DNA of 64,000 bases from Pyropia yezoensis (lineage: Eukaryota > Rhodophyta > Bangiophyceae > Bangiales > Bangiaceae): positions 1,294,425 to 1,358,424 of the forward strand of contig CM020618.1 of the NCBI GenBank assembly GCA_009829735.1, in the 5' to 3' direction. The position numbers and the translations under genes were made by a program. Each line of letters begins with the position of its first letter. Position 1 is the first letter of the stretch. Below the pieces are notes generated by a model. The model ran no database searches, was not told the DNA's origin, and saw nothing but the letters and a program-made list of their open reading frames with translations. Below, in pieces: positions 2,647 to 61,024 of the stretch.

Positions 2647-2647
2647 T

Positions 2648-2665: not shown

Positions 2666-2869
2666 CGGGTTTCCGTCACCCTTGTGGTGACGCCGTCTTC
2701 GGCCCTGGCACACGGATAGGGATCCAGTCCTTTCTTGTACTCGTGGTGCTGCGATCTGTTGATTGTTTTGAGTGGTTGCGTTTGACTGCGATCTACGGTT
2801 ACTCTCCCCCGACTACCCGCTCGCTCTCTTATTCGTGGTGACTGTTCCGACGGTTGACTGATTGTGACT

Positions 2870-4289: not shown

Positions 4290-4290
4290 T

Positions 4291-4334
4291 TGGTGGAGCA
4301 GCAGGGGACGGGTTTCCGTCACCCTTGTGGTGAC
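4291..4334 (+). promoter_or_regulatory. PBS followed by two leader hairpins
   Basis: The 18-base PBS (4291-4308) is followed at once by GACGG-GTTT-CCGTC (4307-4320) and then GTCACC-CTTGT-GGTGAC (about 4317-4333). Both are perfect short stems. Family C has different sequences in the same position (62006-62035) that also fold as two stems, which suggests a leader structure used in priming or packaging. Confidence 0.5.
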
Positions 4335-4514
4335 GCCGTCTTCGGCCCTGGCACACGGATAGGGATCCGGTCCTTTTCTTGTACTCGTGGTGTTGCGACC
4401 TGATCGATTGTGTTGAGCTTTTACCTGTGACTGTGACCTAGTGTTACTCTCCCCAATCTACCCCCTCGCTCTCGTATTCGTGGTGATCGTTGCGTCGGTT
4501 GACTGATTGTGACT

Positions 4515-6698
4515 ATGTCTACCCAAGAGACGGGGAACGTTCAAGATGACGGATCGGCGTCGACGCCGACTCCGGAGGTGACTACGGGAACCGGGATCGT
4601 GAACCCGATCGATAACATTGAGACGCCAATGCTTTCCGGTGCCGGATCGACGTTTGGCACGGCTCGGACGGCAGGAGGCGGGGGCCCGCCTCAACTGTCG
4701 TCGACCGACCTCACTCCGCCGCCTCCTTCACCAGGGGATTCCCTGATGGCATCATTGGCCCGCATCGAGGCCCGGTTTTCCGGGCTCGACGCCCGTCAAG
4801 ATCGGACGGAGGACGCAATGGCAGTGTTGATGTCAACACGGCACACGACGGGACCCCGTCGTGTTCCTCCCACACCGGTACGGTTCGAACCGGCCGGACT
4901 ACTTTCGGAGTCCACCAGGGTCAATCCCGGGGTTGCTACTCCTGGACAACCCCCGGACACAATGGGGTATGGGTCCGACTCGTCGGCAGAGTTGGAACGG
5001 AGTCACACGGAGCGATACGCTCGGAGCACCCGAAGCGGACTCCGCGGACACGACCCGGCAGATACGTACGCCGGGGGAGAGTCGGTTATTGGGGGAGGGG
5101 GTACCCTCTCGCAGTACCCCCACGACGAAGGAGGCCCGGCAACTCGGGTTCCCGAGGTGCCGACGCCTGAAGTACCATCTTCAGTGGTGGAAGCTATGAC
5201 CGCGCAGGTAACTGCGAGCCTACTGAAGCGGATGGAGTCCGATGAGTTCGCTCATCAACTGGCTAAGCGACTGGATATCCAGGACGCTGACACGGAGATC
5301 GTCAACGAGGTCTTCCGGTCGGTTCTTACTCCGGAACGTTATCGTTTGGAGGACCGCTCTACCACCGTATCGGAATCGATGCGTAATACGTCGCATCGGG
5401 CGATCCGCTCTATGCAGACCCTTATGAAGGGAGTCCCTATGTTCGGGGGGCCGAACGGACGCCCGTTGGCAGTCATCGGCTTCTTGACTAGCTTCAAGGC
5501 AGCCGCAGACAAGGCGCTCGTTAACGAGGGGCCGGCCCTGGAGATCCTCCCGTTCTTTGTTGATGAACGGGTGCGAGGCATTCTTCGCCAGGCATCCCCG
5601 ATGCCGGGAATGAGGGTCGCGGCCACCCCCATGGATTACCGTGGGATATTGAAGGAGCTGCTCAGCAGCTACCTCAGTGAGGACAAGTGCGAGGACCACT
5701 ATCGGGCCCTTCGCACTGCCACCGCCCAGTCCTGGGAGGATGAGGAGATGTTTGGACGCCGGATCCAAGAGCTCGACTACGAGCTGGGGAAGCTCCTCGG
5801 AGAAGGGGAGCTACGGGCCATCCTGTTCGCAGGAGTACCCAACTACGTGCGGATATCCGCACGGGGCGCCAACACGGCACGGACGAACTTCAGTCGACTG
5901 ATGCATATGTGCAAGTCCCTAGGGGACGCCTACCGGGTTCTACACCCGGAGTGTGCCTTGGCCCCGAAGCCCAAGGGTGAGGGGAGCAAGCCCAGTCTTA
6001 CCCCGGTACCGAGGCAAGAGAAGGTGGAACGCAAGGCCGCACCAGTACTGGTGGCGACCGAACATACCCCTATTGGTGAGGATGACCCTCTAGTCGACCA
6101 ACAGGGCCACCTGTTGCTACCGGCGACGCCGGTGATTGATGAACACGGTACGGTAGCGTACATCGCCCCGGCTGGAACCCAGTTCCAGGTCAACGAAGGA
6201 ACGGGACGGCGCGTCCCGTATGTGCAGACTACGGGGTACTCCCCGGTGACGGGTAACCCTCACCAACCCTTGCCAACATGGGCGGTGCGCACGGAGGCAC
6301 CCCCGCAGATTGCGGGCCGACCCAACCGGTTGGGGGAGTCCATGTTCCGGTTGACCCAAGGACCCAAGGCCTACCAGGGAGCAGGCACTCGGGCGCCCGA
6401 GGGAGGCAACCGTAGCTACGGGGCTACCCCGATGCGACCTCAAGGGGGGACCGGCACGTCCGGATGTATGTTGTGTGGGGATCCCCAACACTGGGTGTCC
6501 TCCTGCCCACTCATCCCCGAGGAGTCTCGGCGGGCAGCGGCGCAACGCAAGGCATCCACCGGGGGGTATCCCGCCCGAGCACCCGGACCCGCACCGGGTA
6601 GGCAGCCAGCTCCAGGTGGAGTACAGGCCGTCGAGGGGGCACCTCCTCAGCCGGATGTCCCGGCGGACAGCACCCTACCAAGGGCGGGAAACGAGTAA
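4515..6698 (+). CDS. gag: Gag polyprotein, family A
   Basis: A complete 727-residue gag from ATG 4515; a GTG two codons upstream also leaves the frame open, but the ATG is the natural start. The N-terminal ~250 residues are acidic and Pro/Gly/Thr-rich. The middle (about residues 250-475) is a helical capsid-like domain (LKELLSSYLSEDKCEDHYRA region). A Pro/Gly-rich linker follows, then a single CCHC zinc knuckle, CMLCGDPQHWVSSC (CX2CX4HX4C, residues ~651-664), that should bind genomic RNA. Gag would form the cytoplasmic particle. Translation stops at 6696-6698 just after a -1 slippery heptamer, so Pol is made as a minority Gag-Pol fusion. This copy is intact. Confidence 0.9.
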   Translation: MSTQETGNVQDDGSASTPTPEVTTGTGIVNPIDNIETPMLSGAGSTFGTARTAGGGGPPQLSSTDLTPPPPSPGDSLMASLARIEARFSGLDARQDRTEDAMAVLMSTRHTTGPRRVPPTPVRFEPAGLLSESTRVNPGVATPGQPPDTMGYGSDSSAELERSHTERYARSTRSGLRGHDPADTYAGGESVIGGGGTLSQYPHDEGGPATRVPEVPTPEVPSSVVEAMTAQVTASLLKRMESDEFAHQLAKRLDIQDADTEIVNEVFRSVLTPERYRLEDRSTTVSESMRNTSHRAIRSMQTLMKGVPMFGGPNGRPLAVIGFLTSFKAAADKALVNEGPALEILPFFVDERVRGILRQASPMPGMRVAATPMDYRGILKELLSSYLSEDKCEDHYRALRTATAQSWEDEEMFGRRIQELDYELGKLLGEGELRAILFAGVPNYVRISARGANTARTNFSRLMHMCKSLGDAYRVLHPECALAPKPKGEGSKPSLTPVPRQEKVERKAAPVLVATEHTPIGEDDPLVDQQGHLLLPATPVIDEHGTVAYIAPAGTQFQVNEGTGRRVPYVQTTGYSPVTGNPHQPLPTWAVRTEAPPQIAGRPNRLGESMFRLTQGPKAYQGAGTRAPEGGNRSYGATPMRPQGGTGTSGCMLCGDPQHWVSSCPLIPEESRRAAAQRKASTGGYPARAPGPAPGRQPAPGGVQAVEGAPPQPDVPADSTLPRAGNE
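6686..6692 (+). promoter_or_regulatory. -1 programmed ribosomal frameshift site GGGAAAC
   Basis: In the gag frame the codons are GCG GGA AAC GAG TAA, so the heptamer reads G GGA AAC, the canonical X XXY YYZ pattern. Slippage by -1 enters the pol frame at CGA (6692-6694), which is open through PR and RT. GGGAAAC is a known lentiviral (visna, FIV) gag-pol slippery sequence. The same heptamer is at 52962-52968 in element 2. A possible downstream stem pairs CCGGGG (6711-6716) with CCCCGG (6743-6748); its 18-base spacing is longer than usual. Confidence 0.7.
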
Positions 6699-9600
6699 GA
6701 GGAAGGATGACCGGGGGGCGCTGGGGTTACCCAAGCAAGCCACCCCGGAGTACCGCGGGGAAAGCCCCACGGAGAGCGCGGTTGAGCCGACGCCGCATCA
6801 ACCCCCGGGTACACCTTCCGGCCCCGACGACACGGCGTCAGGGGATTGATGACCAACCTCCAAGGTTGGGAGGAGAGGACGGGAAGCCCCGTCACGTTGA
6901 ACCAGACAAGGGCCCTGTTCAGGATGCCCGAGCTACACCGGATATCGGTGTAGGACATGTGTTGTTTACCTTGGAGAACTTCAAGGTATCAGCCACACTG
7001 GGGGTTGACCCCCAGTCGACACGATCGTACTACCCTGTACTGGACACAGGGGCTGGACCCAACCTTATCCGGAAGGATACCCTCCCGGACAAGTGGCTTC
7101 CACGAGTCAGAGTGACTCGGGGACCCACCATCAAGGACGCGAATGGTCGACTCATTCGTACGACCGCAGCGATGTCGCTGCAGGTTACCATCGGGGATCT
7201 CACCACGGAAGTTGACTTCCTGGTATGTGAAACGCTATCGGTGCCCTGCATACTGGGGTGCACCTTCATCAACGTTCACGTTGATGCAATCCGGCCAGGC
7301 CGGAGGACCGTCGAGCTTCAAGAAGCCGACGGGACGAAGCGAGGACACACGGCTATCGTCAGGGACCTGACGCTACAAGGAAGCCACGTTAACGTGGCTG
7401 AGGTGTACGCAAGCGTCGAGCCGAAGACACTTCGGTTGGCCGAGCGAACTCGCTTTGAGCCGTTGTCAGAGACAGTCCTCCCGGTTAACTGCGACCTCGC
7501 AGGCATCTGCAGAGTCCAGTCCAACCTACGGACGTACAAGCGCCATGGGTTGACCATGGCCAACGGTCTCATAGACCTCCCAGCAGGAGGGTCGTCCCTC
7601 CTAGTGATGGCGAACTACCGCCGTAAGGCAGTCACCCTCCCGAAGGGAACTATCCTCGGGATTGCCGAACTCTACGAAGGAGATATCCTTACCCCTGATA
7701 AGGAAGGTCAAGTGGAACCACTTGAAGTACTGGCGGTCGCCGAGACCACCGAGCGACAGCAACCCGATGACGGGAAGCCTAACCCATCGGCGGCTCCGGC
7801 GGACCTGCCGCCAAAGGACCAAGAGGCCTTGAAGGCACTGGCCGAGGCTGACCTCGACCACCTTCCCCCTTCGGTAGCCGAAGGGGTACGACGGATGCTA
7901 AGAAAGCATGACGTTATGTGGACAGGCGGGGCCTTGGGGACCATTGGGGCAACCCAACATCGTATAGACCTGGTACCAGGCGCACGACCCGCCCGCTCAC
8001 AACCGCACCGAGCGGGACCTATGCAACGAGAGATCGTTGATGGAGAAGTGAAGAGGATGAGTGAAGCTAAGGTGATCCGACCTTCGATGTCGGAATGGGG
8101 TGCCCCAGTCGTTATTGTGCCGAAGAAGGATCAAACCCCTCGGTTTTGCATCGATTATCGACGCCTCAACTTGGTTACCAAGAAGGACTCATACCCTTTA
8201 CCAAGGATGGATGAATGCATCGACTCCCTGGGGGAGGCTACGGTGTTTACCACCATCGACTGCAATGCCGGATACTGGCAGATCCCGGTGGCGGACGAGG
8301 ATATCCCCAAGACGGCATTCGTCTGTCACAGTGGAGTGTACGAGTTCCTAAGGATGCCCTTCGGATTGTCCAACGCCCCCGCTACATTCCAGCGGGCTAT
8401 CGACATCATACTGTCTGGGGTGAAGTGGCGTAACTGCCTAGTGTACCTCGATGACGTCATCGTCTTCTCGCGTAACATGGATGACCATGTACAACATGTT
8501 GACGAGGTACTCACCCTCTTGAGGAACGCCGGGGTAACCCTGCGTCTGAAGAAGTGCGCCTTCTTCCAACAGACGGTCTAATATCTGGGCCACCAGATAA
8601 CCCCTGGTAAACTAGGGGTACTCGAAGCCAATACCCGGGCACTCCGGGATGCCCGGTTCCCTAACACCCAGACGCAGCTCAAGAGCTTCCTGGGAATGTG
8701 CAACGTATACCGACGGTTCGTCAAGGACTTCGCTCGGATAGCTAAATTGTTAACGGTTCTTACGAGCAGTACCTTACCCAAGGTACTCCAACCCCCTTCG
8801 CCTAGCGAAGAGGAGGCATTCGAGTCGCTGAAGCGAGCCCTACTAGCCCCACCCGTCCTTGCGTTACCGCATAGACGGGGTACCTTCGTCATCGATGTCG
8901 ATGCGTGTGATACACAAGTGGGATGCACCCTGTTACAGGGAGAGACGTTGATCGGTACCGATAACGTTATCCCGGACCTACGTCCGGTAGGGTACTTCAG
9001 CCGGACACTCAACCCGGCTGAGCGGAACTATAGTGCCACCGAGCGTGAATGCCTCAGAGTTATATGGGCAGTGCAACTGCTCCGTCCATACCTGGAGGGC
9101 TCCAGGTTCATCGTGAGGTCCGACCACGAACCCCTACGATGGCTCCTCAACCTTGGTGACAAGGATTCCGATAGCCATGGGAGGCTAGCCCGATGGAGGC
9201 TGAAGATGGCGAGCACGACTACCGCACGGTGTATAAGGCTGGGTCAACCCACCACCTCGGAGACGCGTTGTCTCGACTCGACACCCCGAGCGGGGATACC
9301 CGCCCGGTGGACGAGGACATCCCGGTAGTACCGGTGTGCATGGTGGGTAATGCTACCCAGGGTATGGCTGACCATACCATGGCACCTTGCGTGCCCATTG
9401 ACCCTCGCGGACTTCCGCGAGGCACAGGCCAACGACGATGACTGTAGACGTCATCGTGCTAACCTCCTGGCCGGTACGGCCGGCATCTTCTCCGAGAACG
9501 AAGACGGACTCATATACCGGCGGGCACCCGCCGATGGACGACATCAAGTCGTGGTTCCCGTGTCCTTACGGCAAGCCGTCATGAAACGAGAACATGAGAA

Positions 9601-10114
9601 CCCTACAGCCGGACACCCGGGGGGTTCACGTATGTTCGCAGCAATGCGAAGGTTCTTCTACTGGCCAGCAATGGCCGTCGACGTGGTCGACCACGTACGG
9701 GGATGCCACCCCTGTGCACGTAACCGCATGAGTCTACATAGGCGGGCGTCTGCCATGAAGCTATTCCCACCTGATGGGCCCAACGAGCAAGTCGCTATCG
9801 ACATACTCGGGCCACTTCCGATAACGGAAGAAGGGAACAGGTACATCCTGGTCATGTCTGACCGCTTCACTAAGCTGTCAAGAGCGGCAGCCATCCGAAT
9901 GATACGGCATACACGATCATGAACGCAGTGGGTTGACCACTGGATCAGTGCATACGGAGTCCATGAAGCAACTCCTCTCCGATAACGGAGCAAACCTTAC
10001 GTCGGCATTCTGCACTAAGGTCCTGGGCATGTTCGGTATCGAACCACGTCGGGCATCCGACTACCACCCGCAGTCCAACGGGCAGGTGGAGCGGTTCAAC
10101 CGCACCATCGTCAA
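6693..10114 (+). pseudogene. pol: Pol of family A element 1 (PR-RT-RNase H-IN, interrupted)
   Basis: The -1 frame opens into protease (YYPVLDTGAGPNLI, ILGCTFI) and then a spacer. The RT follows, with CIDYRRLN, the DCNAGYWQIP motif, MPFGLSNAPATFQRA and the active site YLDD. A TAA at 8579-8581 replaces the GAA codon of element 2 (FFQQTV*YLGHQ), so the long frame stops inside RT. RNase H and integrase follow (HHCC region, IDILGP, SDNGAN, NGQVERFN), broken by small indels near 9207, 9385, 9896, 9930 and 9961. The integrase is cut by the gap at 10115. Active-site residues are present; only the frame is damaged, and the indel cluster close to the contig end may be consensus error. Confidence 0.88.
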
Positions 10115-17879: not shown

Positions 17880-17883
17880 GGTG

Positions 17884-20393: not shown

Positions 20394-20813
20394 CTTGTGG
20401 TCTTCTGGATCAACTCATCCATTCGTCCATGTAGACACTCCGGGACATTCTCCCGATGTACCGTCGGCGACTCAGCCGGCGATATCGTCGCTTGACCGGC
20501 AGATTCTGCCGCTCCAATCTCTTCCCATTGCTGTTGAGTCACAGCAATGACGTTGCCCTCGTAGGTGAAAAATGGACGCTATCTTCATACCTCCGGGAAG
20601 ACGTCGAGGCTTCTTCGACGTGTTCAGGACCTCGACCCACCAAGGTAGGTCATCCCCACAAGTCATGGGGCCCCGTGCAACTTGCATTTGGTGAGTCTGG
20701 CACGCCCGGTCGGTGGGGGAAGCTTGTCCGTTCCCCCAGAAGGTAGTGCGCACACGCACATACTTTCTTAACCGAGGCGGGATAACCGTGCCCCTGTACA
20801 CTCGTACATGGGG

Positions 20814-21542
20814 AAGCCCCACCGGCAGATGGGCCGGTACCGTAGGCGCACGGGGCCGAGGAGGAAAAAGACGACCGGGCGCCCGCCCGGAGTAGCTCCC
20901 AGAGTCCACCGCCATCGGGGAAGACACGTCTTGACCACCTGTCGCCTGCGGCACCGCGGGCAGAGCATCGCCGCCACCCGGGCCCGACGTGGGCACCACG
21001 GGGACGGAGGGGGTAGTCCCGTTACCTGCCTCCACCGACACACCACCAACCGGGCGGGCACCCGCACCTTCTTGACCCACCGTCCCGGCCGGGGTGCCGC
21101 CACGACCGTCCGAAACACCGCCTGCGCCGTCTTGAGGTAGAGCCGGACCAGCACCGGCGACAGGAGCCATCCGGGTCGCCGGAGGAGTAGGAGTAGGGGC
21201 AGCCACTACACGCGGTTGACCGCCACCCGACGGAGCCGTCGTGCCGCTGCACACGGATGAAAACCCGCCCGGCGCGCCTTCCGGGACCACACGGACGGTT
21301 ACCCGGTCGTTTTCGCCCGACGAGCTCGCCAGGAAGCACTCGGCAGCGATGGCGGAGACGGGAACGTCGTCCTGCATCACCTCCTCCTCCTCCTCAAGTA
21401 GGAGGTCGTCCTCACCCCCGGGTACCTGGGGGTCCAACATGGTGGAGCCGGGGTAGCAGGGGCGCCCCGAGCCAAAACGCCGCAGCCGGCTCGACCCGGT
21501 ACAACGAACGCTCGCGCGGACGAGCCAGGGAAGCGCGGGCAC
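20814..21542 (-). pseudogene. Antisense ORF of family A, N-terminal part (diverged third copy)
   Basis: The frame (MLDPQVPGGEDDLL, then an acidic run) matches the N-terminal ~230 residues of the antisense ORF at 57629-60076. Shared blocks include SSVCSGTT.PS.GGQP, GQD..SPMAVD and GSYSGRAP. The two differ by many substitutions and by length changes that keep the frame. At about 20814 the similarity stops and the frame continues, still open, into the protease-RT spacer of the family B element. The rest of the ORF (the conserved C-terminal 550 residues) is missing. Confidence 0.65.
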
Positions 21543-48351: not shown

Positions 48352-48850
48352 CAACCCAACCGACACCGACTTCGGCTGTTGGGGGGTGAGGCTTATACCT
48401 ACTAAGTAGGGTGTGACATGGTTACGGCAGACTTAGGTTTCTAAGTCAAATCAGACTTAGGTTTCTAAGTCGAACCAAGCTTAGGTAACTAAGTAGAGCT
48501 AAGCTTAGGTAACTAAGTAAAACCTGAACCTTAATAAGTTAACTTAAAGGTAAAGGCTAACTCCGATAATATCGAAGTAACTAGGGAGCTTACACGGGAG
48601 GATGACCTCCCCAAGCCAAGACACCAAGTGAGGGAGGATGACCTCCCCAAGCATGAACCTACCGGAAGAAGTTGGACGGGAGGCAAGGCACCACTGAGCC
48701 AGAAGGGGTACTCCCCAGGGCAGCAAACAGAGGCAAGCAATGCCCCCAGCGGGGGATGAGTTTATACTCACTACTACCCGGCTACCATAAGGGTTGCCGG
48801 GGCCCTCTCCCGCACAAACAATAGCACTCCTCAGTGGGTAGACCCACTGC
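48352..48850. promoter_or_regulatory. Hairpin-rich spacer between convergent pol and antisense ORF (element 3)
   Basis: It holds the same series of short inverted repeats as 57150-57650: CCTACT-A-AGTAGG, two copies of GACTTAG-GTTT-CTAAGTC, two of CTTAG-GTAA-CTAAG, CGATA-A-TATCG, two of GGGAGG-ATGA-CCTCCC, CCCCC-AGC-GGGGG, CCCGGC...GCCGGG and CAGTGGGT-AG-ACCCACTG. Confidence 0.75.
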
Positions 48851-51274
48851 CCGAGGGAGGCCACTCACGCGTAAGCGCGTAGACCTCCGTGCTCCACCGG
48901 TCGGCAACGTCACGACGGTCGACCACCCGAGTTACCTCGGTGCATAGCTGGACGAGGGTGCTGCGGCCAGCCTCCACGTCCTCCAGAGCTTTCTGGAGGC
49001 GGTCCAGCACGCCACCGAAGCAACGCGCTGACCCAACCAGCGCAGCACCTGGGGGGATATCCCCCCAGCTAACAGAGAGACCCCCACGCATTGCGCGGGT
49101 AACAAGGGCGTCAACGCCTTCATACCAGAGACGGGGACCCCCGTCATGTAGGACAGGGGCGGGAGGTGACACTGGCGCAGCCAGAGGAGCCACAGGAGCC
49201 GACACGGCTACCACCGGAGCCGGTGGCACCTGATACGAGGCCCGGTAGGACCCTACCGAAGGGGCTCCACCGTAACCACGGCGGTACTCCGCCCGACGAC
49301 GGGACACCTCACGCTCCCCACCCACAGAGCCCCACTCTCGGGGACGACGGCCAACCGCCGCCGGCATCGGGTTACCGAACCACGGAGCAAGGACCTGAAG
49401 AGGGTCATGGATAACCATGGGAATACCCAGGTCAGGAACGGCCTCGGTGGACGCCCACCCATGGCAACTAGGCTCACCCGGCTGAGTACGCCGGACACGC
49501 AACGAGTGACGAGGCAAGGGGGAAGCCCCAGCCTGCGGGTCCCGGTACGGGGGAAGGGCCAACACCCCAGCCCAGTTCACGGCATCGTGAACAGCCAGCA
49601 GGGCTTCGAACTCCCGGGCCAACCCGGTCTTGGCAGCTATCAGATCCACGCCCAACTGCGCGATGTGCCGACGGACACCCGTCGGAAGATGAAACAGACG
49701 ACCCTGCCGGCGGACGGACAGCAAGAAGGATGAAGCCTGCCCGAGGGTAACCTCAAGGGTGAAGGTACCCTGCAACGGGTGGACCGGCCGGGAGGCCAAC
49801 ACACTCCCGAAGTATCGGAGGCAGGAGCCGGTGTCAAACCGGAAAGCAGGGGCGGGTTCCCACCCCTCCTGCCATAGCGGCGGGCGCACGGGAGTGTATA
49901 CCGGAGCACGACCGTTGCCGGTCTGCAACGCACACGTTATATCCGTGCGGAACGCATCCGCCATGACACCATGGTTACGTCGCCAACTCGACGCCGACTT
50001 CAACCCCGCCATGGGCGGGTAGGGAGCCGTCAACGACAGATACGGGGGTACCCCCGGGTAGTAGTCAAAGTCGGGATACCGACCGGTACGGCTCACCGTC
50101 TCCCCAAACGCAACCGGCTCCGCCGCCGCCGCAATCCCCGAGCACTAGCCGGGTAGTCAATCTCCCGCGGCAAACGCGGGGGCAATCAAGTCGCAGACCC
50201 GAAGTTGGGGTCGAGGTAGACCTCACCCCGTCCCACCCGGGTGCGCCAGAGCTGCGCATGCCGGTCGTCCGGCTGACTCAGGATCCAATGGTGTTCCACC
50301 CGGACCGCGTTCGGCTGGTTGACCAGCCGCACCAACTCCCGCTCCCAGCACGGGTCCACCTTGACGCGCCGGGAGGATTCTCCACGGGATGCACCAGGTG
50401 GAAGTCCACCCGCATACGCCATCGGACTCCATCGACTCTTGCACCGTGAGGCCTCGAACCCGAGCCACCAAGTCGGACACCGACATGGCGGGTTGACCCG
50501 CCGCCACGGCGTCGCCGCCACCCAACGGGGCAACCCGGGCAGGACCAGGAAGAATCGGGGGCGCCGGGGGACGCACCACCGGCAGAGGGGCCGACGTCGG
50601 AGATGGACGAGGCCGAGGAGGAAGAAGAAGGGCGGGCGCCCGCCCGGAGTAACTCCCGGTGTCAACCGCCATGGGAGAAGGAGCGTCTTGACCGCTCGAC
50701 GCCCGCGGCACCGCAGGTACGGCACCGGCGCCGGCACCACCCGTCGGCGTAGCCCCCGCCTCGGAAGGGGAAGGCACTTGGACAGCCTCCGGAGCCGGAG
50801 CCCCGGCCGTGCGGACACCCGCACCGTCTTGACCCGCCGCACCGGGTGTCGCACCGCCACCACCACCCGCGTCAACGTCGGGACCGCCTCGAGGAGTCAC
50901 CGCCCGGACACCCGGACCACCTTGACCAGCCGGAGTCGGCTGCGGGTCGCGACCTCCGCCGCAGGGCGGACCATCTTGAGGTAGCTGCGGTGAGCCGGCA
51001 CCGGCACCAGGCTCCATCCGGGCAGCCGGCAGAGAGGGGGTAGAAGCCGCCACGCGCGGTTGACCGCCGGGTTGACCGCCGGCCGACGGCACCGTCGTGC
51101 CGCTGCACACGGACGACAGTCCTCCGGCCGACAGACGGACGGACACCGCAGGCCCGTCGTCGTCAGACGAGCTCACCCCGTAACGCGCGGCGTCGGGACC
51201 GACAGGCGCGTCGTCCTCCATCTCCTCCCCGATCAGGAGGTCTTCCTCCTCTTCAAGCACCTGGGGTAGGACAT
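48831..51274 (-). pseudogene. Antisense ORF of family A, copy in element 3 (frame-shifted)
   Basis: The same gene as 57629-60076, with high identity. Relative to that copy it has single-base losses just after the start (GGGGTAGG against GGGGATAGG, near 51266), near 50410 (TACGCCATCG against TACGCCCATCG) and in a C-run near 50137, plus small changes near 50175-50200. All but the first lie in runs. The C-terminal 420 codons (50096-48831) are open. Most breaks look like homopolymer errors or very recent decay. Confidence 0.7.
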
Positions 51275-51858: not shown

Positions 51859-52210
51859 TGTAGCAATATGGTTGTCCGTATTGTGACCCTAATATTAGGG
51901 GGGCTACTTCTAATCCTTAACTTTCATTTGAGAGTCCGTACTGGTCACGGTATCTATAAGTTACGTATGACCAGAGGGACTTGCATCTTGGGGTGGAGGG
52001 TAGTTAGTAGTGTCTCCGAGGGTTTATAACGAGGGGGCCGGTGGCGAATCCACCGCCGGCCAAGGTAGAACAACAAACCCCTCCCATTTGGGCTCCCATC
52101 TTGGTCCGTGGCTTGCGCTCCAAGGACAGCAACCTTGGCCTCCCGGTGACGTTGGTGCCGATCCCCCTTGGTGAGTGTTCCCTGAGAGTGGACGCGCGAC
52201 GGATCCCTAT
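51859..52210 (+). repeat. LTR shared by elements 3 and 2, 3' end deleted
   Basis: It begins TGTAGCA after the purine tract and follows the consensus to CCTAT at 52210. The last nine bases (TGTGCTACA), the PBS, the leader and the first ~474 codons of gag are missing, and the LTR joins gag directly at GGTTCTACAC. TTTATAA is at 52023-52029. Confidence 0.9.
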
Positions 52211-55200
52211 GGTTCTACACCCGGAGTGTGCCTTGGCCCCGAAGCCCAAGGGTGAGGGAGGCAAGCCCAGTCTTACCCCGGTACCGAGGCAAGAGAAGGT
52301 GGAACGTAAGGCCGCACCAGTACTGGTGGCGACCGAACATACCCCTATTGGTGAGGGTGACCCTCTAGTCGACCAACAGGGCCACCTGTTGCTACCGGCG
52401 ACGCCGGTGATTGATGAACATGGTACGGTAGCGTACATCGCCCCGGCTGGAACCCAGTTCCAGGTCAACGAAGGAACGGGACGGCGCGTCCCGTATGTGC
52501 GGACTACGGGGTACTCCCCGGTGACGGGTAACCCTCACCAACCCTTGCCAACATGGGCGGTGCGCACGGAGGCACCCCCGCAGATTGCGGGCCGACCCAA
52601 CCGGTTGGGGGAGTCCATGTTCCGGTTGACCCAAGGACCCAAGGCCTACCAGGGAGCAGGCACTCGGGCGCCCGAGGGAGGCAACCGTAGCTACGGGGCT
52701 ACCCCGATGCGAACTCAAGGGGGGACCGGCACGTCCGGGTGTATGTTGTGTGGGGATCCCCAGCACTGGGTGTCTTCCTGCCCACTCATCCCCGAGGAGT
52801 CTCGGCGGGCAGCGGCGCAACGCAAGGCATCCACCGGGGGGTATCCCGCCCGAGCACCCGGACCCGCACCGGGTAGGCAGCCAGCTCCAGGTTGGAGTAC
52901 TGGCCGTCGAGGGGGCACCTCCTCAGCCGGATGTCCCGGCGGACAGCACCCTACCAAGGGCGGGAAACGAGTAAGAGGAAGGATGACCGGGGGGCGCTGG
53001 GGTTACCCAAGCAAGCCACCCCGGAGTACCGCGGGGAAAGCCCCACGGAGAGCGCGGTTGAGCCGACGCCGCATCAACCCCCGGGTACACCTTCCGGCCC
53101 CGACGACACGGCGTCAGGGGATTGATGACCAACCTCCAAGGTTGGGAGGAGAGGACGGGAAGCCCCTTCACGTTGAACCAGACAAGGGCCCTGTTCAGGA
53201 TGCCCGAGCTACACCGGATATCGGTGTAGGACATGTGTTGTTTACCTTGGAGAACTTCAAGGTATCAGCCACACTGGGGGTTGACCCCCAGTCGACACGA
53301 TCGTACTACCCTGTACTGGATACAGGGGCTGGACCCAACCTTATCCGGAAGGATACCCTCCCGGACAAGTGGCTTCCACGAGTCAGAGTGACTCGGGGAC
53401 CCACCATCAAGGACGCGAATGGTCGACTCATTCGTACGACCGCAGCGATGTCGCTGCAGGTTACCATCGGGGATCTCACCACGGAAGTTGACTTCCTGGT
53501 ATGTGAAACGCTATCGGTGCCCTGCATACTGGGGTGCACCTTCATCAACGTTCACGTTGATGCAATCCGGCCAGGCCGGAGGACCGTCGAGCTTCAAGAA
53601 GCCGACGGGACGAAGCGAGGACACACGGCTATCGTCAGGGACCTGACGCTACAAGGAAGCCACGTTAACGTGGCTGAGGTGTACGCAAGCGTCGAGCCGA
53701 AGACACTTCGGTTGGCCAAGCGAACTCGCTTTGAGCCGTTGTCAGAGACAGTCCTCCCGGTTAACTGCGACCTCGCAGGCATCTGCAGAGTCCAGTCCAA
53801 CCTACGGACGTACAAGCGCCATGGGTTGACCATGGCCAACGGTCTCATAGACCTCCCAGCAGGAGGGTCGTCCCTCCTAGTGATGGCGAACTACCGCCGT
53901 AAGGCAGTCACCCTCCCGAAGGGAACTATCCTCGGGATTGCCGAACTCTACGAAGGAGATATCCTTACCCCTGATAAGGAAGGTCAAGTGGAACCACTTG
54001 AAGTACTGGCGGTCGCCGAGACCACCGAGCGACAGCAACCCGATGACGGGAAGCCTAACCCATCGGCGGCTCCGGCGGACCTGCCGCCAAAGGACCAAGA
54101 GGCCTTGAAGGCACTGGCCGAGGCTGACCTCGACCACCTTCCCCCTTCGGTAGCCGAAGGGGTACGACGGATGCTAAGAAAGCATGACGTTATGTGGACA
54201 GGCGGGGCCTTGGGGACCATTGGGGCAACCCAACATCGTATAGACCTGGTACCAGGCGCACGACCCGCCCGCTCACAACCGCACCGAGCGGGACCTATGC
54301 AACGAGAGATCGTTGATGGAGAAGTGAAGAGGATGAGTGAAGCTAAGGTGATCCGACCTTCGATGTCGGAATGGGGTGCCCCAGTCGTTATTGTGCCGAA
54401 GAAGGATCAAACCCCTCGGTTTTGCATCGATTATCGACGCCTCAACTTGGTTACCAAGAAGGACTCATACCCTTTACCAAGGATGGATGAATGCATCGAC
54501 TCCCTGGGGGAGGCTACGGTGTTTACCACCATCGACTGCAACGCCGGATACTGGCAGATCCCGGTGGCGGACGAGGATATCCCCAAGACGGCATTCGTCT
54601 GTCACAGTGGAGTGTACGAGTTCCTAAGGATGCCCTTCGGATTGTCCAACGCCCCCGCTACATTCCAGCGGGCTATCGACATCATACTGTCGGGGGTGAA
54701 GTGGCGTAACTGCCTAGTGTACCTCGATGACGTCATCGTCTTCTCGCGTAACATGGATGACCATGTACAACATGTTGACGAGGTACTCACCCTCTTGAGG
54801 AACGCCGGGGTAACCCTGCGTCTGAAGAAGTGCGCCTTCTTCCAACAGACGGTCGAATATCTGGGCCACCAGATAACCCCTGGTAAACTAGGGGTACTCG
54901 AAGCCAATACCCGGGCACTCCGGGATGCCCGGTTCCCTAACACCCAGACGCAGCTCAAGAGCTTCCTGGGAATGTGCAATGTATACCGACGGTTCGTCAA
55001 GGACTTCGCTCGGATAGCTAAACCGTTAACGGTTCTTACGAGCAGTACCTTACCCAAGGTACTCCAACCCCCTTCGCCTAGCGAAGAGGAGGCATTCGAG
55101 TCGCTGAAGCGAGCCCTACTGTCCCCACCCGTCCTTGCGTTACCGCATAGACGGGGTACCTTCGTCATCGATGTCGATGCGTGTGATACACAAGTGGGAT

Positions 55201-57149
55201 GCACCCTGTTACAGGGAGAGACGTTGATCGGTACCGATAACGTTATCCCGGACCTACGTCCGGTAGGGTACTTCAGCCGGACACTCAACCCGGCTGAGCG
55301 GAACTATAGTGCCACCGAGCGTGAATGCCTCGGAGTTATATGGGCAGTGCAACTGCTCCGTCCATACCTGGAGGGCTCCAGGTTCATCGTGAGGTCCGAC
55401 CACGAACCCCTACGATGGCTCCTCAACCTTGGTGACAAGGATTCCGATAGCCATGGGAGGCTAGCCCGATGGAGGCTGAAGATGGCCGAGCACGACTACC
55501 GCACGGTGTATAAGGCTGGGTCAACCTACCACCTCGGAGACGCGTTGTCTCGACTCGACACCCCGAGCGGGGATACCCGCCCGGTGGACGAGGACATCCC
55601 GGTGGTACCGGTGTGCATGGTGGGTAATGCTACCCAGGGTATGGCTGACCATACCATGGCACACCTTGCGTGCCCATTGACCCTCGCGGACTTCCGCGAG
55701 GCACAGGCCAACGACGATGACTGTAGACGTCATCGTGCTAACCTCCTGGCCGGTACGGCCGGCATCTTCTCCGAGAACGAAGACGGACTCATATGCCGGC
55801 GGGCACCCGCCGATGGACGACATCAAGTCGTGGTTCCCGTATCCTTACGGCAAGCCGTCATGGAACGAGAACATGAGAACCCTACAGCCGGACACCCGGG
55901 GGGTTCACGTATGTTCGCAGCAATGCGAAGGTTCTTCTACTGGCCAGCAATGGCCGTCGACGTGGTCGACCACGTAAGGGGATGCCACCCCTGTGCGCGT
56001 AACCGCATGAGTCTACATAGGCAGGCGTCTGCCATGAAGCTATTCCCACCCGATGGGCCCAACGAGCAAGTCGCTATCGACATACTCGGGCCACTTCCGG
56101 TAACGGAAGAAGGGAACAGGTACATCCTGGTCATGTCTGACCGATTCACCAAGCTGTCACGAGCGGCAGCCATCCCGAATGATACGGCATACACGATTAT
56201 GAACGCAGTGGTTGACCACTGGATCAGTGCATACGGAGTCATGAAGCAACTCCTCTCCGATAACGGAGCAAACCTTACGTCGGCATTCTGCACTAAGGTC
56301 CTGGGCATGTTCGGTATCGAACCACGTCGGGCATCCGACTACCACCCGCAGTCCAACGGGCAGGTGGAGCGGTTCAACCGCACCATCGTCAAGATGCTAC
56401 AGTGCTACGTGGCAGAGCACACGAACACTTGGGACAGGCTTCTGTCCGTACTCACCCTGGCATACAATGCCAGGCCACATCGGAGTACCAACATCGCCCC
56501 ACTGGAATGGGTCATGCCACTAGGCGTCGGTAACCTGACGCTGCCGCCAGGCAGGTGCACTCGGTATGATACACCGAAGGGCCGACCCGCCGAACGCATC
56601 CACCTAGCTTGGTTGGCCAAGCTATCGTGGATGATTCCTAAGCTCAAGGGTGCCCTTGACAGAACACAACTTCGGTATAAGAAGAACTTCGACGCCCGAC
56701 TACGGGTGCGCAACGCAACCCTGGTAACAGGTGACTGGGTCTATATCAGACACCAGAAGTTCCGAGGGAACAAGCTTATGCAACCGGTCAAGGGACCGTA
56801 CCAGATCCTCCACAGAGATGACCACTCTGTTATCTTACACTCCGATACGGAGATCCAACGCATCAGTATGAATGATGTCACACCTGCTCCGAAGCCGGAA
56901 CAGCCTCAGCCGGTACCGGCTGGGTTGCTACATGAAGCTCTTACAACCCACCGGTCGGATGACCCGGTGGGACCGGATGGGATTCCATACCAAGTAGAGA
57001 GCGTGGTCGGACACACCGACCCGGACATACCAGGACCCTGGTACGTCAAGGTTATGTGGGTCGGATACGACTCACCCACCTGGGAACAGGCGGCGAATAT
57101 ACCCCGCCAACTACTCATGCCTTACATGAGGCGACGACGCCTACTGTAA
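52209..57149 (+). CDS. pol: Gag tail fused to complete Pol, family A element 2
   Basis: ATG 52209 spans the LTR/gag deletion junction and opens 1646 codons. Approximate residues: 178-191 CCHC knuckle (CMLCGDPQHWVSSC); 371 protease Asp (VLDTGAG) and ILGCTFI; RT with RFCIDYRRLN, MPFGLSNAPATFQRA and YLDD at 838-841; RNase H with TERECLG and RSDHEPL; integrase zinc finger HENPTAGHPGG...CHPCARNR. The D,D-35-E triad is at 1291, 1351 and 1387; the GPYQIL motif follows, and the C-terminal chromodomain (WYVKVMWVGYDSPTWEQAAN) is at about 1590-1646. A one-base T insertion near 52890 moves gag into the pol frame upstream of the slippery site, so no frameshift is needed. The frame also stays open upstream through the LTR to 52041, but only from a GTG. 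All catalytic residues are present. Confidence 0.9.
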   Translation: MVLHPECALAPKPKGEGGKPSLTPVPRQEKVERKAAPVLVATEHTPIGEGDPLVDQQGHLLLPATPVIDEHGTVAYIAPAGTQFQVNEGTGRRVPYVRTTGYSPVTGNPHQPLPTWAVRTEAPPQIAGRPNRLGESMFRLTQGPKAYQGAGTRAPEGGNRSYGATPMRTQGGTGTSGCMLCGDPQHWVSSCPLIPEESRRAAAQRKASTGGYPARAPGPAPGRQPAPGWSTGRRGGTSSAGCPGGQHPTKGGKRVRGRMTGGRWGYPSKPPRSTAGKAPRRARLSRRRINPRVHLPAPTTRRQGIDDQPPRLGGEDGKPLHVEPDKGPVQDARATPDIGVGHVLFTLENFKVSATLGVDPQSTRSYYPVLDTGAGPNLIRKDTLPDKWLPRVRVTRGPTIKDANGRLIRTTAAMSLQVTIGDLTTEVDFLVCETLSVPCILGCTFINVHVDAIRPGRRTVELQEADGTKRGHTAIVRDLTLQGSHVNVAEVYASVEPKTLRLAKRTRFEPLSETVLPVNCDLAGICRVQSNLRTYKRHGLTMANGLIDLPAGGSSLLVMANYRRKAVTLPKGTILGIAELYEGDILTPDKEGQVEPLEVLAVAETTERQQPDDGKPNPSAAPADLPPKDQEALKALAEADLDHLPPSVAEGVRRMLRKHDVMWTGGALGTIGATQHRIDLVPGARPARSQPHRAGPMQREIVDGEVKRMSEAKVIRPSMSEWGAPVVIVPKKDQTPRFCIDYRRLNLVTKKDSYPLPRMDECIDSLGEATVFTTIDCNAGYWQIPVADEDIPKTAFVCHSGVYEFLRMPFGLSNAPATFQRAIDIILSGVKWRNCLVYLDDVIVFSRNMDDHVQHVDEVLTLLRNAGVTLRLKKCAFFQQTVEYLGHQITPGKLGVLEANTRALRDARFPNTQTQLKSFLGMCNVYRRFVKDFARIAKPLTVLTSSTLPKVLQPPSPSEEEAFESLKRALLSPPVLALPHRRGTFVIDVDACDTQVGCTLLQGETLIGTDNVIPDLRPVGYFSRTLNPAERNYSATERECLGVIWAVQLLRPYLEGSRFIVRSDHEPLRWLLNLGDKDSDSHGRLARWRLKMAEHDYRTVYKAGSTYHLGDALSRLDTPSGDTRPVDEDIPVVPVCMVGNATQGMADHTMAHLACPLTLADFREAQANDDDCRRHRANLLAGTAGIFSENEDGLICRRAPADGRHQVVVPVSLRQAVMEREHENPTAGHPGGSRMFAAMRRFFYWPAMAVDVVDHVRGCHPCARNRMSLHRQASAMKLFPPDGPNEQVAIDILGPLPVTEEGNRYILVMSDRFTKLSRAAAIPNDTAYTIMNAVVDHWISAYGVMKQLLSDNGANLTSAFCTKVLGMFGIEPRRASDYHPQSNGQVERFNRTIVKMLQCYVAEHTNTWDRLLSVLTLAYNARPHRSTNIAPLEWVMPLGVGNLTLPPGRCTRYDTPKGRPAERIHLAWLAKLSWMIPKLKGALDRTQLRYKKNFDARLRVRNATLVTGDWVYIRHQKFRGNKLMQPVKGPYQILHRDDHSVILHSDTEIQRISMNDVTPAPKPEQPQPVPAGLLHEALTTHRSDDPVGPDGIPYQVESVVGHTDPDIPGPWYVKVMWVGYDSPTWEQAANIPRQLLMPYMRRRRLL

Positions 57150-57650
57150 CAACCCAACCGACACCGACTTCGGCTGTTGGGGGGTGAGGCTTATACCTAC
57201 TAAGTAGGGTGTGACATGGTTATGGCAGACTTAGGTTTCTAAGTCAAATCAGACTTAGGTTTCTAAGTCGAACCAAGCTTAGGTAACTAAGTAGAGCTAA
57301 GCTTAGGTAACTAAGTAAAACCTGAACCTTAATAAGTTAACTTAAAGGTAAAGGCTAACTCCGATAATATCGAAGTAACTAGGGAGCTTACACGGGAGGA
57401 TGACCTCCCCAAGCCAAGACACAAAGTGAGGGAGGATAACCTCCCCAAGCATGAACCAACCGGAAGAAGTTGGGCGGGAGGCAAGGCACCACTGAGCCAG
57501 AAGGGGTACTCCCCAGGGCAGCAAACAGAGGCAAGCAATGCCCCCAGCGGGGGATGAGTTTATACTCACTACTACCCGGCTACCATAAGGGTTGCCGGGG
57601 CCCTCTCCCGCACAAACAATAGCACTCCTCAGTGGGTAGACCCACTGCCC
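57150..57650. promoter_or_regulatory. Hairpin-rich spacer between convergent pol and antisense ORF (element 2)
   Basis: About twelve perfect inverted repeats with 1-5 base loops in 500 bases. They include CCTACT-A-AGTAGG (57196-57208), GACTTAG-GTTT-CTAAGTC (57228-57245 and 57252-57269), CTTAG-GTAA-CTAAG (57278-57291 and 57302-57315), CGATA-A-TATCG (57362-57372) and GGGAGG-N4-CCTCCC (57394-57409 and 57430-57445). CCCCC-AGC-GGGGG (57541-57553), CCCGGC...GCCGGG (57575-57599) and CAGTGGGT-AG-ACCCACTG (57630-57647) follow; the last overlaps the end of the antisense ORF. Possible roles are bidirectional termination, processing or packaging. Confidence 0.75.
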
Positions 57651-60076
57651 GAGGGAGGCCACTCACGCGTAAGCGCGTAGACCTCCGTGCTCCACCGGTC
57701 GGCAACGTCACGACGGTCGACCACCCGAGTTACCTCGGTGCATAGCTGGACGAGGGTGCTGCGGCCAGCCTCCACGTCCTCCAGAGCTTTCTGGAGGCGG
57801 TCCAGCACGCCACCGAAGCAACGCGCTGATCCAACCAGCGCAGCACCTGGGGGGATATCCCCCCAGCTAACAGAGAGACCCCCACGCATTGCGCGGGTAA
57901 CAAGGGCGTCAACGCCTTCATACCAGAGACGGGGACCCCCGTCATGTAGGACAGGGGCGGGAGGTGACACTGGCGCAGCCAGAGGAGCCACAGGAGCCGA
58001 CACGGCTACCACCGGAGCCGGTGGCACCTGATACGAGGCCCGGTAGGACCCTACCGAAGGGGCTCCACCGTAACCACGGCGGTACTCCGCCCGACGACGG
58101 GACACCTCACGCTCCCCACCCACAGAGCCCCACTCTCGGGGACGACGGCCAACCGCCGCCGGCATCGGGTTACCGAACCACGGAGCAAGGACCTGAAGAG
58201 GGTCATGGATAACCATGGGAATACCCAGGTCAGGAACGGCCTCGGTGGACGCCCACCCATGGCAACTAGGCTCACCCGGCTGAGTACGCCGGACACGCAA
58301 CGAGTGACGAGGCAAGGGGGAAGCCCCAGCCTGCGGGTCCCGGTACGGGGGAAGGGCCAACACCCCAGCCCAGTTCACGGCATCGTGAACAGCCAGCAGG
58401 GCTTCGAACTCCCGGGCCAACCCGGTCTTGGCAGCTATCAGATCCACGCCCAACTGCGCGATGTGCCGACGGACACCCGTCGGAAGATGAAACAGACGAC
58501 CCTGCCGGCGGACGGACAGCAAGAAGGATGAAGCCTGCCCGAGGGTAACCTCAAGGGTGAAGGTACCCTGCAACGGGTGGACCGGTCGCGAGGCCAACAC
58601 ACTCCCGAAGTAGCGAAGACAGGAGCCGGTGTCAAACCGGAAAGCAGGGGCGGGTTCCCACCCCTCCTGCCATAGCGGCGGGCGCACGGGAGTGTATACC
58701 GGAGCACGACCGTTGCCGGTCTGCAACGCACACGTTATATCCGTGCGGAACGCATCCGCCATGACACCATGGTTACGTCGCCAACTCGACGCCGACTTCA
58801 ACCCCGCCATGGGCGGGTAGGGAGCCGTCAACGACAGATACGGGGGTACCCCCGGGTAGTAGTCAAAGTCGGGATACCGACCGGTACGGCTCACCGTCTC
58901 CCCAAACGCAACCGGCTCCGCCGCCGCCGCAATCCCCCGAGCACTAGCCGGGTAGTCAATCTCCCGCGGCAACGCGGGGGCAATCAAGTCGCAGACCCCG
59001 AAGTTGGGGTCGAGGTAGACCTCACCCCGTCCCACCCGGGTGCGCCAGAGCTGCGCATGCCGGTCGTCCGGCTGACTCAGGATCCAATGGTGTTCCACCC
59101 GGACCGCGTTCGGCTGGTTGACCAGCCGCACCAACTTCCGCTCCCAGCACGGGTCCACCTTGACGCGCCGGGAGGATTCTCCACGGGGATGCACCAGGTG
59201 GAAGTCCACCCGCATACGCCCATCGGACTCCATCGACTCTTGCACCGTGAGGCCTCGAACCCGAGCCACCAAGTCGGACACCGACATGGCGGGTTGACCC
59301 GCCGCCACGGCGACGCCGCCACCCAACGGGGCAACCCGGGCAGGACCAGGAAGAATCGGGGGCGCCGGGGGACGCACCACCGGCAGAGGGGCCGACGTCG
59401 GAGATGGACGAGGCCGAGGAGGAAGAAGAAGGGCGGGCGCCCGCCCGGAGTAACTCCCGGTGTCAACCGCCATGGGAGAAGGAGCGTCTTGACCGCTCGA
59501 CGCCCGCGGCACCGCAGGTACGGCACCGGCGCCGGTACCACCCGTCGGCGTAGCCCCCGCCTCGGAAGGGGAAGGCACTTGGACAGCCTCCGGAGCCGGA
59601 GCCCCGGCCGTGCGGACACCCGCACCGTCTTGACCCGCCGCACCGGGTGTCGCACCGCCACCACCACCCGCGTCAACGTCGGGACCGCCTCGAGGAGTCA
59701 CCGCCCGGACACCCGGACCACCTTGACCAGCCGGAGTCGGCTGCGGGTCGCGACCTCCGCCGCAGGGCGGACCATCTTGAGGTACCTGCGGTGAGCCGGC
59801 ACCGGCACCAGGCCCCATCCGGGCAGCCGGCAGAGAGGGGGTAGAAGCCGCCACGCCCGGTTGACCGCCGGGTTGACCTCCGGCCGACGGCACCGTCGTG
59901 CCGCTGCACACGGACGACAGTCCTCCGGCCGACAGACGGACGGACACCGCAGGCCCGTCGTCGTCAGACGAGCTCACCCCGTAACGCGCGGCGTCGGGAC
60001 CGACAGGCGCGTCGTCCTCCATCTCCTCCCCGATCAGGAGGTCTTCCTCCTCTTCAAGCACCTGGGGATAGGACAT
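57629..60076 (-). CDS. Antisense ORF of family A retrotransposon, unknown function
   Basis: 815 codons from ATG 60076 (MSYPQVLEEEEDLLIGEE), on the strand opposite gag-pol, between pol and the 3' LTR. Residues 1-40 are acidic. Residues 45-260 are Pro/Gly/Ala-rich with SSVCSGTT (54-61) and MAVDTGSYSGRAP (202-214). From about 264 the composition becomes that of a folded protein (MSVSDLVARVRGLTVQESME, RVEHHWILSQPDDRHAQLWR, FDYYPGVPPYLSLTAPYPPM, LQGTFTLEVTLGQASSFLLS). A Pro/Ala-rich patch follows, then a C-terminal helix (VGSARCFGGVLDRLQKALED). No signal peptide or membrane helix is evident and I recognise no family. The frame is open further upstream to 60358 from a GTG. The promoter is not evident; it would lie in 60077-60661 or the LTR. 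Copies at 48831-51274 and 20814-21542 support it as a real gene. Confidence 0.65.
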   Translation of the reverse strand: MSYPQVLEEEEDLLIGEEMEDDAPVGPDAARYGVSSSDDDGPAVSVRLSAGGLSSVCSGTTVPSAGGQPGGQPGVAASTPSLPAARMGPGAGAGSPQVPQDGPPCGGGRDPQPTPAGQGGPGVRAVTPRGGPDVDAGGGGGATPGAAGQDGAGVRTAGAPAPEAVQVPSPSEAGATPTGGTGAGAVPAVPRASSGQDAPSPMAVDTGSYSGRAPALLLPPRPRPSPTSAPLPVVRPPAPPILPGPARVAPLGGGVAVAAGQPAMSVSDLVARVRGLTVQESMESDGRMRVDFHLVHPRGESSRRVKVDPCWERKLVRLVNQPNAVRVEHHWILSQPDDRHAQLWRTRVGRGEVYLDPNFGVCDLIAPALPREIDYPASARGIAAAAEPVAFGETVSRTGRYPDFDYYPGVPPYLSLTAPYPPMAGLKSASSWRRNHGVMADAFRTDITCALQTGNGRAPVYTPVRPPLWQEGWEPAPAFRFDTGSCLRYFGSVLASRPVHPLQGTFTLEVTLGQASSFLLSVRRQGRLFHLPTGVRRHIAQLGVDLIAAKTGLAREFEALLAVHDAVNWAGVLALPPYRDPQAGASPLPRHSLRVRRTQPGEPSCHGWASTEAVPDLGIPMVIHDPLQVLAPWFGNPMPAAVGRRPREWGSVGGEREVSRRRAEYRRGYGGAPSVGSYRASYQVPPAPVVAVSAPVAPLAAPVSPPAPVLHDGGPRLWYEGVDALVTRAMRGGLSVSWGDIPPGAALVGSARCFGGVLDRLQKALEDVEAGRSTLVQLCTEVTRVVDRRDVADRWSTEVYALTREWPPSGSGSTH

Positions 60077-60661
60077 GATAACGGGGGCGGAATCCCCCGC
60101 GCCCACAAGCCGTCGACGGCTACAACCCGGTACGGTGGGATAACCGGGACGAGCCAGGGAAGCGCGGACACCCGCGCTTATGACCACAAACGGCCACGCG
60201 AAGCGCCGCAGGCACGCGGGTCGACCCGCGCCCCACGGGGCTACGACCGCGCTCCACCCAGGCACCTGGGCGGGACGGGGCCACACCCACACACGGGGTA
60301 AGTAAGGGGGGTCACCCCCAACCGCCCCCACGCAACGCGGGCAGCCCCCGCCCCCCACTCAATCGTCCACAAGAGAGGGGCCCCTCTACCACCAGGCACC
60401 TGGTGGCGGATCCGCTTGCACCACCCCTCGGAAAGGGGGGTCGTGAACAAAAACCCGCATCGGGAAATTAACGGTCCGGAAAACGGATCGTGTGTGTACC
60501 ACACAAAGGGGGGCACCCCCCTCGGACAACCTCGAAAAGGGGTGTCTGTCGCGACGGGGCGCAAAGCCCCACCCGACGGGTAAACAGTCACGCGACCCAC
60601 TTACATTCGGTAACCCGAATGCAACTCGACCCGAGGACGGGCCGAATCTAAGGGGGGGATA
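60077..60661. promoter_or_regulatory. 3' noncoding region of family A; 5' flank of the antisense ORF
   Basis: It contains further perfect inverted repeats: AGAGGGG-CCCCTCT (60374-60387), CCACCAGG-CA-CCTGGTGG (60389-60406), GTGTG-TAC-CACAC (60492-60504), GGGGGG-CA-CCCCCC (60508-60521), GGGGC-GCAAA-GCCCC (60556-60570) and CATTCGG-TAAC-CCGAATG (60604-60621). It ends in the polypurine tract AAGGGGGGGATA. Any promoter of the antisense gene should be here or in the LTR. Confidence 0.6.
60650..60661 (+). other. Polypurine tract before LTR
   Basis: AAGGGGGGGATA directly before the 3' LTR, identical to 51847-51858. Confidence 0.75.
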
Positions 60662-61024
60662 TGTAGCAATATGGTTGTCCGTATTGTGACCCTAATATTT
60701 GGGGGGCTACTTCTAATCCTTAACTTTCAATTTGAGAGTCCGTACTGGTCACGGTATCTATAAGTTACGTATGACCAGAGGGACTTGCATCTTGGGGTGG
60801 AGGGTAGTTAGTAGTGTCTCCGAGGGTTTATAACGAGGGGGCCGGTGGCGAATCCACCGCCGGCCAAGGTAGAACAACAAACCCCTCCCATTTGGGCTCC
60901 CATCTTGGTCCCGTGGCTTGCGCTCCAAGGACAGCAACCTTGGCCTCCCGGCGACGTTGGTGCCGATCCCCCTTGGTGAGTGTTCCCTGAGAGTGGACGT
61001 GCGACGGATTCCTATTGTGCTACA
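60662..61024 (+). repeat. 3' LTR of family A element 2
   Basis: A 363-bp LTR from TGTAGCA to TGCTACA. It is followed by CGGAC and 46 more bases of non-element sequence before the gap, with no PBS, so this is a true 3' LTR. The 5' flank of the composite is not in the window, so the target duplication cannot be checked. Confidence 0.93.

Follow-up and report, generated by a model that had tools for sequence, protein, structure and literature searches.

An antisense open reading frame under protein-level selection, probably an accessory gene, in Ty3/gypsy elements of the red alga Pyropia yezoensis

In a stretch of 64,000 nucleotides of Pyropia yezoensis DNA (the window), the 815-codon open reading frame (ORF) at 57629-60076 of the minus strand is probably a protein-coding antisense accessory gene of a bangialean Ty3/gypsy lineage, a reading that includes a regulatory role of its product. 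Repeats make up 48.0% of the P. yezoensis genome and are mostly LTR retrotransposons, as given in the accessible part of PMC7423979. The host element (51859-61024) is of the Ty3/gypsy type, and the ORF was read in the sequence where the preliminary description had placed it, antisense to gag-pol, past the end of pol (stop at 57149) and before the 3′ LTR. The features used below are the following, in window coordinates.

3927..10114, plus strand: further copy of the family, cut by an assembly gap, with an LTR at 3927-4289 and a gag-like stretch at 4752-6686
20811..21542, minus strand: third copy of the antisense gene, a diverged N-terminal fragment of another N-terminal type; its LTR at 22030-22393 (plus strand)
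48831..51274, minus strand: second copy of the antisense gene, frame-broken
51859..52219, plus strand: 5′ LTR (TGTAG...CTACA), 97.8% identical to 60662-61024
52041..57149, plus strand: sense ORF with the end of gag, protease, RT, RNase H, integrase and a weak chromodomain (Pfam)
57150..57628, no strand: region with short repeats, between pol and the antisense gene, whose stops face each other (read in the sequence)
57629..60076, minus strand: antisense gene, 815 codons (ORF, homologues, selection, shuffles)
57632..58156, minus strand: antisense residues 641-815, Arg-rich linker and C-terminal part (composition, model)
58157..59299, minus strand: antisense residues 260-640, conserved core (low dN/dS between A and B; collinear with family C)
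59402..60076, minus strand: antisense residues 1-225, acidic start and then Pro/Gly-rich tail, under weak or no constraint
60077..60661, minus strand: leader from the 3′ LTR to the antisense ATG (read in the sequence)
60662..61024, plus strand: 3′ LTR (TGTAG...CTACA; read in the sequence)

The layout of the LTRs, the sense ORF and a likely primer binding site defines the plus strand as the sense strand, and the ORF at 57629-60076 is therefore antisense to the genomic RNA. The candidate site was found in the copy at 3927-10114, where TGGTGGAGCAGCAGGGGA stands one base past the LTR (4291-4308); read as its reverse complement it has a terminal CCA like that of tRNAs, and it is likely to serve this function. 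Similarly, a purine-rich stretch of the plus strand at about 60650-60661, before the 3′ LTR, is likely the polypurine tract. Within the sense ORF, RT, RNase H and integrase lie above the Pfam cut-offs and the protease just under its cut-off (E 4e-5), a C-X2-C-X4-H-X4-C knuckle in the gag end has a Pfam E value of 0.13, and the Chromo matches are sub-threshold (E 0.039 in the family of the window element, family A, and E 0.0013 in family C, introduced below). The 5′ LTR is apparently common to the element and to a truncated copy on its left.

Three copies of the antisense gene had been reported, all in the window; the gene is far more numerous, and a DNA search of the genome (107.5 Mb) gave at least 40 full-length matches, the best 40 of 1,119 candidates, all of them 99 or 100% identical as printed. 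The copy at 48831-51274 is near-identical, as described (99.2%), but its ORF is not intact because of six one-base insertions or deletions. The third copy is diverged as claimed (46.6% over residues 19-236, a 3′-end fragment of the element); however, it and the shared blocks named there fall in the N-terminal part, the least constrained of the protein, and it is thus the weakest of the evidence for selection. Beyond this fragment, pol lies on the same (minus) strand and is 81-88% identical to family C. The reading of the copy near 20 kb as one with gag and pol colinear was rejected, its ORF being a 3′-end fragment joined to a family-C-like pol.

When the genome was searched with a P. vietnamensis protein (P0003), 45 of the best 67 matches among 2,176 candidates had no stop inside the match. 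Due to the C-terminal extension of P0003, the stops listed for open copies such as L013 lie past the true end. Among the matches listed, L009-L013, L017, L018, L023, L029 and L032 form a subfamily, B, which is about 77% identical to A at the DNA level and, over the longest protein match, 68-72%; three of these ten (L013, L017 and L018) are open throughout, and the other seven are broken or shortened. Because the copies were taken from lists of best matches, intact and protein-like copies are favoured.

The preliminary description took the antisense frame for a selected protein and named a dN/dS near 1 as the contrary outcome. In our comparison of A (the window gene) with B (L013), dN/dS was 0.31 for the whole ORF and 0.24 for the core (dN 0.185, dS 0.758), which bears the proposal out; the A-versus-B selection count covers 12 of the 38 loci, all open. 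Substitutions in the core fell 84/52/146 at codon positions 1/2/3, and dN/dS for residues 1-259 was 0.43. As a control, all six frames were compared between the same two sequences: the antisense frame alone was stop-free in both and had the lowest dN/dS, whereas the other five contained stops in both sequences, four of them with ratios of 0.91-1.97 (1.10-1.76 over the whole ORF). The remaining one, an opposite-strand frame which shares the third codon positions with the antisense frame, had a ratio of 0.44-0.47 (0.47 across the full ORF, where it contained 26 and 20 stops).

Pooled and uncorrected dN/dS across 24 A loci was 0.06 for the pol end, 1.90 for residues 1-225, 0.24 for the core and 0.27 for residues 641-812; for nine of the ten B loci against A, the corresponding values were 0.11, 0.55, 0.33 and 0.45, so that in both comparisons the core is under weaker constraint than pol. 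Since pooling counts shared changes many times, distinct variants within A were counted too (26 sequences for the antisense gene and 25 for pol), with about 2.2 replacement changes per silent change expected without selection. Replacement/silent variants were 9/19 (shared) and 42/63 (single) in the core, 21/10 and 31/19 in residues 1-225, 8/6 and 16/8 in residues 641-740, 1/3 and 7/5 plus one stop in residues 741-815, and 5/30 and 38/35 plus one stop in the pol end. These near-neutral counts give no ground for positive selection on residues 1-225, which the pooled value might suggest. Judged by the variants, the core is constrained, while the N-terminal tail and the linker are little or not constrained within A, residues 1-225 and 641-740 looking close to neutral. 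The silent excess among single core variants may be due to copies having been picked by protein score, and this bias towards best-scoring copies weighs less on the A-versus-B and family C comparisons than on the within-family counts.

The antisense protein had four protein matches at E ≤ 0.01 among 7,985 candidates scored. They are P0001, P0002 and, from P. vietnamensis, the hypothetical proteins MMPV_009242 (48% across 75% of the query) and MMPV_001347 (49% across 31% of it). In L040, a longer cut of L017, there is beside the B copy another Ty3/gypsy pol (family C), with a truncated antisense ORF on the strand opposite to it. The pol end of family C is 36% identical to that of A over the last 350 columns, and its longer antisense ORFs have 638 codons (L047, L049, L050 and L051). 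For the family C antisense gene, the search listed 141 matches among 1,493 candidates, and with P0012 as the query 60 of the 69 matches listed had no stop inside. dN/dS of L047 was 0.24 against L049, 0.38 against L051 and 0.35 against L050, and that of L049 against L051 was 0.31. In the six-frame control of L047 against L049, the antisense frame alone was open, four others had ratios of 0.97-3.46, and the opposite frame sharing third positions had a ratio of 0.32 with 15 and 16 stops. The family C antisense protein had eight protein matches, four of which came from P. vietnamensis at 44-53%.

The antisense proteins of A and C align in blastp with E 4e-6 (36 bits, 24.9% over 253 columns) and those of B and C with E 3e-7 (40 bits), whereas the best of 200 composition shuffles reached 26.9 bits; the A-C alignment is collinear through the core. 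A profile comparison of A with the truncated C protein gave no significant similarity. On the strength of the alignments, we regard the A and C antisense proteins as homologous. Moreover, the antisense gene and pol lie on opposite strands at 35 of 38 distinct A/B loci, a count that leaves out L039 and L040 as longer cuts of L013 and L017 and treats L014-L016 as having no pol, because their sole pol match (33%) falls within the antisense gene. Together with L030, these three make up a tandem array with a period of 3,489 bases, in which only L030 has an adjacent pol. In family C, where the gene directly follows pol, the two lie on opposite strands at 19 of 19 loci (with part of pol at L049), the place of the gene being defined relative to pol; L060 is an upstream flank that carries neither pol nor the antisense gene. 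A position between pol and the 3′ LTR (the aORF-3R position) was found in the window element and in the B copy L039. On the simplest reading, the elements from which A and C descend already carried the antisense gene, and these comparisons mark it as an accessory gene, antisense and of long standing, in a red-algal lineage.

The ORF runs from the ATG at 60076 to the stop at 57629. Its start, MSxPQV, is common to A, B and P0002 and reads MLDPQV in the third window copy. The acidic start, EEEEDLLIGEEMEDD, gives residues 1-40 a net charge of -13, the Pro/Gly-rich tail contains LLLPPRPR, and the Arg-rich linker has a pI of 10.4 in residues 641-730. The C-terminal part is predicted to be helical, with low confidence: pLDDT is 54-78 in five blocks of this part in the A-protein model and low there in the C-protein model, and the means of the two models are 32.5 and 39.1. 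The protein was not recognised in the preliminary description, and our searches agree, there being no Pfam family above cut-off and no significant PDB relative; DUF6214 matched the antisense proteins below cut-off (E 0.04-0.1), and fold searches with the low-confidence models gave no reliable fold match. No bZIP family was matched in Pfam searches of the window proteins and nine members, no hydrophobic or transmembrane segment was seen (maximal 19-residue hydropathy 1.37 in A and 1.38 in C), and membership in Transposase_28 (PF04195) was rejected, since the window proteins gave none at E ≤ 10 and the nine members none at E ≤ 1. As far as these searches reach, the antisense ORF of the red-algal elements codes for a distinct protein family, with no relative in Pfam or the PDB.

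We suppose that antisense transcription would begin within the 3′ LTR or just inside it, pass through the gene and stop short of pol, and that the protein translated from the transcript would be a regulatory, perhaps nuclear, factor acting in the element's own transcription, in escape from silencing or in integration. Going by composition and analogy, the protein would most likely be a regulator, perhaps a nuclear one. A TATAAA on the minus strand at 60827-60832, within the 3′ LTR, is a possible antisense promoter element; the motif is present in six of six LTR copies checked and reads CATAAA in a seventh, truncated LTR (22386-22660), a recurrence that is only a hint of an antisense promoter.

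Instead of a regulator, the protein could be a structural or particle-associated one or an enzyme with an unknown fold, which is unlikely but the most serious of the alternatives. The core, which spans about 380 residues and has W, H, R and C at conserved positions, would suit such a protein, as would the lack of a recognised family; however, nothing speaks positively for it, and the absence of a transmembrane segment stands against it. We consider it rather improbable that the antisense transcript acts as RNA, in a dsRNA-based self-limitation, with the protein secondary. The antisense gene is wholly complementary to the genomic RNA, so that dsRNA could form, and dual roles have been proposed for plant antisense ORFs in the accessible part of PMC7264820, but the bias among codon positions and the conserved amino acids reveal selection at the protein level, and a role as RNA alone needs no open frame.

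The antisense gene is extra to the usual gene set of the element, because a sense gag-like region precedes the protease in other copies. The sense ORF had been called gag-pol, and pol and the end of gag are indeed present; however, about 395 upstream gag-like residues are absent from 51859-61024, although present in the copy at 3927-10114. The first codons of the sense ORF fall inside the LTR, and its homology to the sense ORF of L039 begins at 52212, which corresponds to L039 residue 396. No capsid is recognisable in the sense ORF of 51859-61024, and the gag-like region of other copies matches none of the Pfam families, as might be expected if the antisense ORF were the displaced Gag of an ambisense element with its capsid on the other strand. 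In L039, however, the region precedes the knuckle and protease in the same frame, where gag usually lies, it is 94% conserved at 4752-6686, and the knuckle itself lies in the sense ORF. We read the upstream region, by place and eye, as gag/capsid, and because it exists the antisense ORF is probably not displaced gag, an alternative that we hold to be very improbable.

The least credible alternative is an open frame due to chance in GC-rich DNA (65% GC over 57150-60661), against which the preliminary description had cautioned, or a by-product of constraint, coding or regulatory, that acts on the sense strand, where a 341-codon ORF overlaps the antisense ORF: 1,000 dinucleotide shuffles of 57150-60661 did give long open runs in the six frames (median 228, 99th percentile 385 and maximum 558 codons), but the observed run of 909 codons, stop to stop from an upstream GTG, exceeds them all, the three opposite-strand frames contain 7-26 stops in A and 10-20 in B, and the protein shares conserved sequence with annotated proteins of P. 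vietnamensis (48-49%) and, detectably, with that of family C.

The preferred reading, an antisense accessory gene with a regulatory product, has parallels in other elements. HTLV-1 HBZ and HIV-1 ASP are antisense retroviral genes towards the 3′ LTR, and HBZ has a known regulatory role. The gene described here is like them in being antisense towards the 3′ LTR and in having an acidic N-terminal stretch, and unlike them in coding for a much longer, red-algal protein without a bZIP match or membrane segment. VANC of VANDAL elements is an element-coded anti-silencing protein; the likeness is in possible function alone, that of an element-coded and fast-evolving regulator, and VANDAL, unlike the present element, is a DNA transposon. 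A regulatory role has been proposed for plant antisense ORFs as well. HBZ is also treated as an antisense retroviral gene in the accessible part of PMC11963269. Antisense ORFs at the aORF-3R position are described, in the accessible parts of PMC7264820 and PMC11963269, from Grande (gene23), RIRE2, Retand (ORF4), PvRetro13 and the fungal Boty, and according to the latter source a Transposase_28 protein is coded at this place in 97% of the Retand clusters that were recently active. As far as these sources describe them, the ORFs of flowering plants and Boty agree with the present gene in position, orientation, presence in many copies and conservation across species as protein, but here we find another protein family (no Transposase_28), a red-algal host and an apparent exchange of the core. 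Retand is a non-chromovirus by its description in the accessible text, whereas the present element has a sub-threshold chromodomain match, and its lineage probably differs from that of Retand. A literature search, with most subscription journals outside its reach, found no such antisense gene described from red algae. The presence in red algae of an unrelated family, under selection as protein, points to more than one origin of such antisense accessory genes and suggests that they do something for which LTR elements have a recurrent need.

Comparison of the window element with L039 (B) in 250-base bins gave identities of 0.92-0.98 at 52.4-57.4 kb, except for the first bin, which lies at the deleted junction and gave 0.75. 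Identity was 0.85 at 57.4 kb, 0.68-0.80 at 57.65-59.4 kb (the core and C-terminus of the antisense gene) and again 0.87-0.96 in the N-terminal part, the leader and the LTR. In the same sense, dS was highest in the core (0.73-0.78), against 0.23-0.28 in the pol end and 0.12-0.17 in residues 1-225. We read this mosaic pattern as module exchange by recombination. It is a tentative and rather doubtful extension that a protein family of its own, antisense since before the split of A and C, would be an exchangeable specificity module, whose cores are swapped to change the interaction with host silencing or rival elements. The P. yezoensis copies provide many natural replicates, a yardstick in the pol of the same copies and natural module swaps, and the question is therefore testable. 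In P0002, the N-terminus is nearest to the third window copy and the core is nearest to A.

Outside the window, four copies of the antisense gene (loci L030 and L014-L016) lie in a tandem array with a period of 3,489 bases at G000:C2:9880067-9892399, where pol adjoins the antisense gene only in the L030 unit, and two units that were compared showed 99.7% identity over 1,300 bases. In the second antisense copy of the window (region 46272-51274), which has an assembly gap nearby, 13 mismatches and 6 one-base indels were found; the indels may mark a pseudogene or may be sequencing errors.

In the window, a tandem duplication of ∼1,645 bases (2280-5573, 89% identity) comprises the LTR and the gag-like 5′ part. 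Two family LTR copies are arranged head-to-head at 22030-22660, and the diverged antisense fragment borders this pair on one side. Further features are as follows.

187-1860, pol of another family
11918-14089 (-), ORF (723 codons) in which cysteine/histidine motifs occur in pairs
17853-20393 (-), family-C-like pol near the head-to-head LTR pair
24108-25151 (-), ORF of 347 codons
61076-61575, assembly gap, after which a further element family starts

Over 820-1860, the first of these has 51% identity to the integrase end of family C, and the family starting after the gap includes a distant gag-like stretch at 62964-63614 (25% identical). We presume that the motif pairs of the 723-codon ORF resemble a RING-IBR ubiquitin ligase, and we take the end of the 347-codon ORF to look like the dimerisation region of a hAT transposase. 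A satellite array flanked by 500-N gaps occupies 31025-45687 with units of ∼551 bases, many of them 99-100% identical (26 copies among the matches listed).
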